Origin: Thermodesulfobacteriota bacterium
GTDB taxonomy: Bacteria; Desulfobacterota_D; UBA1144; Nemesobacterales; UBA2774
Length of the DNA: 64,000 nt
NCBI GenBank assembly: GCA_021604765.1
Contig: BQJP01000001.1
Coordinates: forward strand, 1-64,000
Direction of reading: 5' to 3'
A model generated the notes under the pieces. It did no database searches. It was not told the origin of the DNA and saw only the letters and a list, made by a program, of their open reading frames with translations. This document shows, piece by piece, positions 11,423 to 21,197 of the stretch. The position numbers and the translations under genes are program-made. Position 1 is the stretch's first letter; the number at the start of each line of letters is the position of its first letter.

Positions 11423-11962
11423 GTGTTCATTTCCCGAATAATCAGAGCTTTATTGCTGGACATTAATCTGTACGAAGAGGTTGAGAACGATAAGAGTTCT
11501 ATCTGGCAATCCATGGGTGTGGTTTTTCTTGCCAGTCTTGCCGCCGGTATTTATACATATGAATTAGGTGGGCTGAGCGGCTTATTTATAGGAACCATCC
11601 TTTCATTTGGGGGATGGATAGTGATGTCTTTTATCATTTATCTTGTTGGGACTAAACTCTTCCCAAGCACGGAAACTAGAACTGATATTGGGGAAATTCT
11701 AAGAGTGCTTGGATTCGCAGCATCCCCCGGCATTTTTCTTTTAGTAGCGCTGATTCCCTTACTAAGTAGCTTTGTGTGGCTTATTATACTTGTTATATGG
11801 GTCTGGAGACTGGTGGCAATGATAATTGCCATAAGACAGGCTTTGGACTTCAAAAATACCTGGAGTGCAATCTGGGTTTGTGTTATAGGTCTAATAGCCT
11901 ACTTATTGGTATACATAATACTTCTGTTTGCCTACGGGCTGCCTAAACCTATCTGGTCTTAA
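11423..11962 (+). CDS. Yip1-domain membrane protein, copy 2
   Basis: The second 179-aa Yip1-type protein shares the DINLYEEVENDKSS start and the MIIAIRQALDFK(N/S)TW motif with copy 1, and it is clearly a tandem duplicate that has diverged. The start is GTG (GTGTTCATTTCC) with a purine-rich TAGGAG upstream. It has about five membrane helices. It is unusual that each copy keeps its own promoter. Confidence 0.8.
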   Translation: MFISRIIRALLLDINLYEEVENDKSSIWQSMGVVFLASLAAGIYTYELGGLSGLFIGTILSFGGWIVMSFIIYLVGTKLFPSTETRTDIGEILRVLGFAASPGIFLLVALIPLLSSFVWLIILVIWVWRLVAMIIAIRQALDFKNTWSAIWVCVIGLIAYLLVYIILLFAYGLPKPIWS

Positions 11963-18630: not shown

Positions 18631-18915
18631 TTACTTTGCCATACCTGCATAAGCGACAGGACGCGTGTCTCCAAATGCATTTATAATTGTATCCATGAAT
18701 TCTTTTGTGTGGTCTTCACAGAAATGATAAATGAGGGTTTCTCTTCCACCTCTGCTAGAAACTGAAACCTGTTCATAATGTCTACTGCAGAGGTCTTTGT
18801 TGCAGAGGGCGCATGGCTTAATTCCCTGGCGTTCTCCTTCGCTCTCACATCTGGTGCCATCCTCATGTTCAAAATCGCATTGGTACATTTCAACTGTGAT
18901 TGTCTTTTTGGACAT
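18631..18915 (-). CDS. small Cys/His-rich (probable zinc-binding) protein, paralogue 1
   Basis: A 94-aa protein sharing a strict ligand pattern with its two neighbours: C13-x9-C23-x11-C35-x2-C38-x4-C43-x2-H46-x19-C66-x2-H69, eight potential ligands for two zinc ions. It begins MSKKTITVEM and ends with an F-G-DTRP segment. The C-x2-C-x4-C-x2-H core recalls cross-brace fingers such as AN1, but I do not recognise a named bacterial family. It is not fused to a known domain. An AAGGAG-type site precedes the ATG. A promoter element common to all three genes lies about 100 nt upstream. Confidence 0.75.
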   Translation of the reverse strand: MSKKTITVEMYQCDFEHEDGTRCESEGERQGIKPCALCNKDLCSRHYEQVSVSSRGGRETLIYHFCEDHTKEFMDTIINAFGDTRPVAYAGMAK

Positions 18916-19017
18916 GCATATTCTCCTTATTCATAAGGCATATTTTTTCTGTATAGTTGCCATTATTTAATTACAAGCACTTTAATCTTAATAACCATTT
19001 GAGGCAACACTTTATCA

Positions 19018-19046
19018 ATTAAACTAAATCCTAGGGAATAAGTCAA
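19018..19046 (-). promoter_or_regulatory. shared promoter element, copy 1
   Basis: TTGACT, 17 nt, TTTAAT on the minus strand. The spacer (TAT, then variable bases, then GGATTTAG) is nearly the same as in the two other copies, although promoter spacers are normally free to drift. Confidence 0.7.
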
Positions 19047-19083
19047 TATAGTTTTTAGTAGATATTGGTTATTGATCAGATTG

Positions 19084-19377
19084 TTAGTTCAAAACAAGCC
19101 CATATCCAGACCCAGGTATTGGTCTGGTATCTCCAAATTTGTCCACGAGGGTTTTTAGAAATTCATCATTATGGTGCGGGCAGAAATAGTATGTAAAATG
19201 GTCTCTTGTTGACTGAATAGTAACAGTGGTTAAATCGTAATGTGTGATGCAGAGGTCTTTATTGCATATGCTGCAGACTTTTATTGCCTGATCATCTCCC
19301 TCACTAGTGCAGCGCTCGCCGTTTTCGTCTTCGTGATCACACTGGAGTATCTCAAGCTCTATCTCTCTTTTTGACAT
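19084..19377 (-). CDS. small Cys/His-rich (probable zinc-binding) protein, paralogue 2
   Basis: A 97-aa paralogue. It keeps the eight ligands at the same positions (C13, C23, C35, C38, C43, H46, then YYFC and H three residues later) and the segments QCDHEDENGERC and NKDLC. The C-terminus again has FGDTRP, followed by Gly-rich residues. Its promoter element ends only 8 nt before the start codon, giving a leaderless or very short-leader message, whereas the other copies have longer leaders. It is probably cytoplasmic, since no signal peptide is present. Confidence 0.75.
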   Translation of the reverse strand: MSKREIELEILQCDHEDENGERCTSEGDDQAIKVCSICNKDLCITHYDLTTVTIQSTRDHFTYYFCPHHNDEFLKTLVDKFGDTRPIPGSGYGLVLN

Positions 19378-19385
19378 ATCTTTCT

Positions 19386-19414
19386 ATTAGACTAAATCCT
19401 TGAATATAAGTCAA
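19386..19414 (-). promoter_or_regulatory. shared promoter element, copy 2
   Basis: TTGACT, 17 nt, TCTAAT on the minus strand, with spacer TATATTCAAGGATTTAG. The -10 is 8 nt before the start codon of paralogue 2. Confidence 0.7.
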
Positions 19415-19456
19415 TCTTAAAAAGACTGGAACAAGTTAAGTGTGTTCAACACGCAT

Positions 19457-19783
19457 TTATATCATATGTGTGCCGTCGCCTACGTTGGGCAAGTTTAGAC
19501 CCTCACCATATCGTTCTACTACGGTATCTTTGAATAGATCAGAATGTTCACTGCAGAAATAGTAGAGGAACCGCAATCGGTGTCCGTGGAATAGGGAGCT
19601 CACTTCGCCAACAGCTGTTAGGAATACTACTGTTGTAATTTGGCAATGTGATTTGCAGAGATCCATATGACAAACATGACAACTTTTAATTGTTTCCTCA
19701 TCGCCATCATTTGTACAGCGTTCACCGTTTTCGTCAACGTGGTCACACTGCAGCATTTCTATTTTGATTGTTTTCTTTGACAA
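19457..19783 (-). CDS. small Cys/His-rich (probable zinc-binding) protein, paralogue 3
   Basis: A 108-aa third copy with the same eight-ligand scaffold (QCDHVDENGERC, SCHVCHMDLCKSH, YYFCSEH). It has an 11-residue insertion between H46 and the last Cys (GEVSSLFHGHR) and a different C-terminus lacking DTRP. It is the most diverged of the three. The start codon appears as ATG in TTGTCAAAG context on the minus strand (or the neighbouring TTG), so the N-terminal residue is less certain than in the other copies. It has its own copy of the shared promoter. Confidence 0.72.
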   Translation of the reverse strand: MSKKTIKIEMLQCDHVDENGERCTNDGDEETIKSCHVCHMDLCKSHCQITTVVFLTAVGEVSSLFHGHRLRFLYYFCSEHSDLFKDTVVERYGEGLNLPNVGDGTHMI

Positions 19784-19822: not shown

Positions 19823-19851
19823 ATTTAACTAAATTCACGAATATAAGTCAA
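19823..19851 (-). promoter_or_regulatory. shared promoter element, copy 3
   Basis: TTGACT, 17 nt, TTAAAT on the minus strand, with spacer TATATTCGTGAATTTAG. It lies about 40 nt before paralogue 3. Confidence 0.7.
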
Positions 19852-20228: not shown

Positions 20229-21197
20229 ATGATTTCACCTCAAGAAAGCTTAAAAGGCGCAATTAAATTTTTTCACACTAAAGCCAAAGGTAGCCCAACA
20301 CTCCTCAATTTAGAGATTACAAAACTTTGTAATGCTAAATGCGACTTTTGTGATTATTGGCAAACTCGGCACGAAGAACGTTTATATGACTACCGCCCTG
20401 TGATTAAAAAAATTGATCCTCTAGTAGTAGTTGTTACTGGGGGGGAGCCCATGCTTCGCAAGGATCTGCCCGATATAATAAGGCAGATTAAAGAGTGTTC
20501 TTACTTTATTTTTACTTCCATGGTAACCAAAGGTGATTTGCTAACAGTCGACAAAGCCCAAGAACTCTTTGACGCTGGAATAAATCAGATTGCTGTATCT
20601 TTGGACTTTCCAAATAAACAGCATGATACATATAGAGGTATTCCAGGGCTTTGGGATAAGTTATCTAAATTGATGCCTGAGTTAGGGAAGAGGTTCCCTG
20701 ATCAGAAGATAACAATGAACACAATTATTATGGAAGATAATCTTGAACAAGTTCCTGAACTTGCCAGAAAAGCTCATGAATGGGGAGTAGGTATTTCCTT
20801 CAGCTCTTATTGTGTTATGAAAACTAATAATGAAGAGCACTTTGTTCCACAGGAAGAAATACAAAAAGTTCAGAACTTAGTAGATGAACTTATTCACATG
20901 AGAAGAAAGTATAAAGGGACAATACTTTCAACTGAATATTATTTAAATGAAATACCACGGTATTTTGAATCAGGTGGAATTCCTGGATGTACGGCTGGGA
21001 TAAGCCATATACAGGTTACTCCTAGCGGTCATTTAAAACGCTGTTCTGAGATGCCGGTCACAGCACATTATTCCGAATATCACCCCAAACTTTACGGAGA
21101 GACTAAATGCACTGAGTGCTGGTATAGTTGTAGAGGCGAAACTCAAACTTCTGCTAGTATTAAACGCGCACTTGAGTATATGGGTGTCTGGGTTTAA
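20229..21197 (+). CDS. radical SAM protein with C-terminal cysteine cluster
   Basis: A 322-aa radical SAM enzyme. It has the SAM-cluster motif C34-x3-C38-x2-C41 (EITKLCNAKCDFCDYW), followed by VVTGGEPMLRKD and the SLDFPNKQHDTYRG strand. The C-terminal part has PGCTAG, RCSEM and a CTECWYSCRG cluster (about residues 255-305) that may hold an auxiliary Fe-S cluster, as in SPASM/twitch proteins. Substrate unknown. It is preceded by a strong promoter with no leader. The small frame upstream is the only candidate partner nearby, and no maturation or export genes accompany it. Confidence 0.85.
   Translation: MISPQESLKGAIKFFHTKAKGSPTLLNLEITKLCNAKCDFCDYWQTRHEERLYDYRPVIKKIDPLVVVVTGGEPMLRKDLPDIIRQIKECSYFIFTSMVTKGDLLTVDKAQELFDAGINQIAVSLDFPNKQHDTYRGIPGLWDKLSKLMPELGKRFPDQKITMNTIIMEDNLEQVPELARKAHEWGVGISFSSYCVMKTNNEEHFVPQEEIQKVQNLVDELIHMRRKYKGTILSTEYYLNEIPRYFESGGIPGCTAGISHIQVTPSGHLKRCSEMPVTAHYSEYHPKLYGETKCTECWYSCRGETQTSASIKRALEYMGVWV

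Follow-up and report, generated by a model that had tools for sequence, protein, structure and literature searches.

Three tandem paralogues of a small Cys/His protein family in Dadabacteria with a predicted two-zinc fold

The AN1 zinc finger (PF01428) has the signature C-x2-C-x(9-12)-C-x(1-2)-C-x4-C-x2-H-x5-H-x-C, and the phosphoinositide motif of FYVE fingers is the basic sequence R(R/K)HHCR. The FYVE-like fingers of Rim2 and rabphilin (2a20 and 1zbd), which are eukaryotic Rab effectors, form a two-zinc cross-brace containing a treble clef that ends in a C-terminal helix. DUF2180 (PF09947) comprises archaeal proteins of unknown function. The RING-like group (RING, B-box and ZZ) is defined by a C-terminal strand that joins the primary hairpin, with the last ligand at the start of that strand (PMC4506424). 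Finally, small standalone zinc-finger micro-proteins of one domain, lacking any catalytic domain, have been described in the archaeon Haloferax volcanii, where 12 of 16 deletions gave condition-specific phenotypes (PMC6562870).

The window analyzed here is a 64,000-nucleotide stretch of a Dadabacteria genome, and it contains three adjacent small genes that lie on the minus strand in the order P3 (108 codons), P2 (97 codons) and P1 (94 codons). P1 (18631..18915, minus strand) starts with ATG behind a strong ribosome-binding site, AAGGAG, and ends in GDTRPVAYAGMAK. P2 (19084..19377, minus strand) also starts with ATG and has the class-specific tail GDTRPxPxxGYG..., while P3 (19457..19783, minus strand) starts with TTG, carries an 11-residue insertion in its hairpin and has the tail PNVGDGTHMI. 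The TTG start of P3 is supported because most of its orthologues likewise begin with M-S-K, translated from a TTG or GTG codon. P2 and P3 are 47% and 38% identical to P1, respectively, and a search of the same genome with P2 revealed the other two paralogues at E=1.6e-28 and 9.6e-23 and no further member of the family.

All three proteins contain the pattern C13-x9-C23-x11-C35-x2-C38-x4-C43-x2-H46, followed by a last C-x2-H pair at residues 66/69 in P1 and P2 and at residues 77/80 in P3. The ligand core comprises residues 13-69 of P1 (18709..18879, minus strand; C13, C23, C35, C38, C43, H46, C66 and H69), which form the confident part of its model, residues 13-69 of P2 (19171..19341, minus strand), as placed by the alignment, and residues 13-80 of P3 (19544..19747, minus strand), as placed by the alignment and an AlphaFold2 model. 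The eight ligands were invariant in 39 of 39 aligned members, and only five other columns of this alignment (M1, D14, G27, D41 and G82) were invariant. Comparison with orthologues gave dN/dS values of 0.03 for P1, 0.08 for P2 and 0.12-0.15 for P3, with synonymous sites saturated in the wider comparisons. Because the ligands are invariant and dN/dS is low, we regard the three open reading frames as real genes. The sequence-only reading of this DNA, which had described three tandem paralogues with eight common Cys/His residues and no catalytic domain attached, was thus borne out on these points; its statement that the ligands occupy fixed positions holds exactly for the first six, but the last pair is shifted in P3.

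Comparison with known families revealed no Pfam, NCBIfam, PHROG or PADLOC model that scored above its cut-off, in agreement with the earlier description of the family as undescribed. None of the curated libraries searched had the family, although its kind, the small treble-clef zinc protein, is already known. Below threshold, the sequence libraries gave contacts with DUF2180, DUF5763 and B-box models. The DUF2180 model aligns over C23...C35-x2-C38-x4-C43-x2-H46 and touched 16 of the 39 members (best E=0.00035), but the alignment covers only about 26 residues in most members, and the scores (17.0 bits for P2 and at best 20.1 bits in 58 genomes) lie below the gathering cut-off of 22.2 bits, so we did not assign the family to DUF2180. 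The resemblance to AN1 that had been proposed from the sequence is confined to the central C-x2-C-x4-C-x2-H block and the idea of two zinc ions; the AN1 signature itself does not occur, as the first pair is C13-x9-C23 and the last is C66-x2-H69, and the Pfam zf-AN1 model touched only one of the 39 members (E=0.98). Weak matches to zf-B_box_Trim66 and TRIM25 around C35-H46 recall the B-box and other RING-like binuclear treble clefs. Searches of the PDB by sequence found no significant relative; a match to DEPDC5 (E=0.0043) was rejected, as the matched stretch lacks the ligand pattern. The Haloferax micro-proteins resemble the family in being small, standalone proteins, but they are archaeal, shorter than 70 aa and built on C(P)XCG motifs.

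To describe the fold, AlphaFold2 models were made for P1 (pLDDT 81) and P3 (pLDDT 73) from an input alignment of only 19 related sequences. Both models showed strands at residues 32-34, 41-43, 48-53 and 60-65 (the last two at 48-55 and 69-76 in P3), with a knuckle at residues 35-38 and a beta-hairpin followed by a C-terminal helix. In both, the helix starts just past the seventh ligand (C66 in P1 and C77 in P3) and contains the eighth, which differs from the C-terminal strand of the RING-like group and places the family outside it. The P1 and P3 models are likely to represent a treble clef with an additional N-terminal ligand pair, and a two-zinc cross-brace, as suggested by the sequence-only reading, is the natural interpretation of this predicted fold. 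As judged from the secondary structure, the treble clef would use the second and fourth ligand pairs, therefore leaving the first and third for a second site. The metal is presumably zinc; AlphaFold2 is unable to tell whether such motifs bind zinc, and of 14 Haloferax C(P)XCG proteins that were purified, 5 contained no zinc (PMC11241148).

All Foldseek matches had E values above 0.001. Against the PDB, the best non-ribosomal match was the Rim2 zinc finger (Foldseek probability 0.98, TM 0.67 by target length), with rabphilin lower, and these FYVE-like fingers are the most credible neighbors of the modeled fold. They show no sequence match to the family, and the FYVE basic motif is absent, the third pair region of P1 reading DLCSRHY. 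The top Foldseek rows were mostly 40S ribosomal proteins, including eS26, which would fit a ribosome- or RNA-associated factor whose zinc core binds rRNA or mRNA in the manner of small zinc ribosomal proteins. We consider this explanation unlikely, as the ribosomal matches were weak (E values of at least 0.04, and an rmsd near 10 in many cases) and the family proteins are mostly acidic. Their pI ranges from 4.5 to 7.6, and their net charge is zero or negative in nearly all members and 0 or +1 in a few. The eight thiolate and imidazole ligands within 94 residues could alternatively serve a zinc or redox buffer or sensor that stores zinc or releases metal on oxidation. This function seems improbable: the treble-clef spacing, the invariance of residues other than the ligands and the invariant tail fit a structural zinc core better than a metallothionein-like store, and no zinc-uptake or redox genes were recognized beside the family.

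The C-terminal tail of P1 (residues 82-94, GDTRPVAYAGMAK; 18634..18672, minus strand) was highly conserved. In particular, G82, D83, G91, M92 and K94 were invariant in 22 of 22 P1 sequences, all of which keep the end GM(A/G)K, and most P1 members end in GD(T/S)RPxxxxGM(A/G)K. Residues 88-94 of P1 nevertheless had pLDDT values below 50 and are predicted to be disordered. Since ends that are conserved yet disordered are typical of docking motifs, the P1 tail may be such a motif. The tails of P2, P3 and P4, a fourth paralogue class described below, differ from that of P1.

Taken together, we propose that the family consists of Dadabacteria-specific, acidic cytosolic adaptors. The small, mostly acidic protein would fold around two zinc ions, with site A formed as a treble clef by the knuckle C35-x2-C38 and by C66-x2-H69, where the C-terminal helix begins, and with site B joining the N-terminal pair C13/C23 to C43/H46 to complete the cross-brace. 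The zinc core would be a scaffold with a structural role, and a protein partner would dock to the hairpin loop and to the C-terminal tail, which is flexible yet invariant. Binding to protein is favored over binding to nucleic acid because the pI is low, the charge is mostly zero or negative and no further domain is attached. P1 would be the ancestral housekeeping adaptor, and P2, P3 and P4 would have arisen by tandem duplication, retaining the promoter while the loop and tail changed; the paralogues would thus be made together, under the same conditions, and would differ in the partner that they bind. The fold part of this proposal is fairly likely on the basis of the models, and the chances of the adaptor part, a plausible role that the sequence-only reading had also raised, are about even; the proposal as a whole, including the partner-selecting loop and tail and the shared promoter, may equally well be right or wrong. 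A broader form, in which these phylum-private adaptors constitute a co-expressed, partner-specific set around a conserved Dadabacteria process, is tentative and somewhat doubtful. The invariant GM(A/G)K of P1 and the class-specific tails offer a direct handle on the adaptor idea.

Upstream of each gene in the window, we found a promoter-like box, TTGACTT-N11-TTTAGTTTAAT or a near copy. The box of P1 (TTGACTTATTCCCTAGGATTTAGTTTAAT; 19018..19046, minus strand) lies 102 nt before the ATG, that of P2 (TTGACTTATATTCAAGGATTTAGTCTAAT; 19386..19414, minus strand) 8 nt before the ATG, and that of P3 (TTGACTTATATTCGTGAATTTAGTTAAAT; 19823..19851, minus strand) 39 nt before the TTG. Its spacing fits a sigma-70-type promoter (TTGACT, 17 bases, TTTAAT) and tolerates 16 or 17 bases. 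The promoter scan does not list the box because it demands an A as the second base of the second hexamer. Allowing up to three mismatches to the specific pattern, the window's genome contained only these three sites. Across 58 genomes, 39 sites were found at up to one mismatch, compared with two for the reversed-pattern control; 32 of them precede a family gene, and one more lies near a contig end where P1 would be expected. The remaining six occur in the genome families f2 and f3 (loci L079, L078, L096, L097, L082 and L083), five upstream of an aldehyde dehydrogenase gene and one upstream of an acyl-CoA dehydrogenase gene. At two mismatches, the additional sites were little above the control. 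Shared boxes inside one array are explained by duplication; conservation of the box between the genome families f1, f2 and f6 implies function, and the box is a candidate promoter class of Dadabacteria.

These data support separate promotion of the genes, as had been read from the sequence. The accompanying idea that the copies act under different conditions was not supported, as a near-identical box before each gene argues for shared regulation. The near-exclusive occurrence of the box before family genes in f1 (up to one mismatch), together with a viral fold match annotated as 'Lsr2-like DNA bridging protein', could point to a transcription factor or nucleoid protein acting on the repeated box upstream of its own gene. 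Such autoregulation is very unlikely, since the protein family is absent from genome G002, where the box precedes an aldehyde dehydrogenase gene, the family members in genus g17 (family f7) have no such box, the box has the -35/-10 spacing and tolerance of a promoter, and the protein is acidic. In g17 (e.g., L026, L031 and L061), another conserved promoter-like element, TTACCA-18-TATAAT, replaces the box. In four genomes, 8-10 nt separate the end of the P2 box from the start codon, so that the P2 mRNA may be leaderless. P2 lacks a box in G034 and on one contig of G036, where it lies less than 30 bases after P3 and is probably co-transcribed with it.

Of 58 Dadabacteria genomes, 35 matched a profile of the three window paralogues. 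A 39-row profile found no match in approximately 329 genomes outside this phylum (387 searched in all, with positives solely among Dadabacteria, 35 in number). A phage or plasmid origin was rejected, as tblastn against phages and plasmids and a search of viral contigs revealed no relative; a role as a defence gene was likewise rejected for lack of a PADLOC match. Fourteen of the 23 Dadabacteria genomes without the family belong to f8, whose genomes are near 1 Mb. Genome streamlining has been described in pelagic Dadabacteria (PMC8115339), and we infer from genome size that f8 corresponds to that group. Five other negatives (G010, G035, G039, G040 and G043) also lack the neighboring radical SAM gene and may reflect assembly gaps, while G001, G002, G011 and G012 have the radical SAM gene without a family member. 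In G012 and two f8 genomes, the order radical SAM, Nnr, TsaE, LysC, CimA is kept and the family gene is missing. Streamlined lineages thus lack the gene and keep its neighbors; this clean absence is a further point against a ribosome- or RNA-associated factor. Because the gene is widespread in Dadabacteria yet missing where flanking genes remain, we conclude that it is conserved but dispensable.

Four paralogue classes, P1 to P4, were distinguished on the tree. P1 formed a single group (100/99), as did P3 and P4, and P2 was not resolved as one group. P1 is the slowest-evolving class and the only one found outside f1; the tree is unrooted, so the simplest reading, that the array grew from P1 inside f1, rests on distribution. 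The family adds a strongly conserved, probable zinc protein to a little-studied and mostly uncultured phylum; its ligand signature is clear, its origin is defined, and there are genomes that naturally lack it.

The gene order around the family is often conserved, although no neighbor was found to be obligatory; an operon with phosphodiesterase or Nnr/TsaE/LysC genes was rejected on this ground. A radical SAM protein is encoded divergently from the array (20229-21197) and occurs in 52 of the 58 Dadabacteria genomes; no NCBIfam equivalog scored above its cut-off (best rSAM_PTO1314, 92 versus 306 bits). A pairing of radical SAM maturase and precursor peptide was rejected, as the radical SAM gene is also present in streamlined genomes without the family and is separated from the family gene in G005 and G014. 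In G036, which may be a mixed MAG, the region is found on two contigs (L044 and L045) and includes two radical SAM copies. We also observed a protein of about 178 aa (cluster c9) near the array (window 11423-11959; L044 677-1889; L049 727-2553), which occurs in tandem in some relatives.
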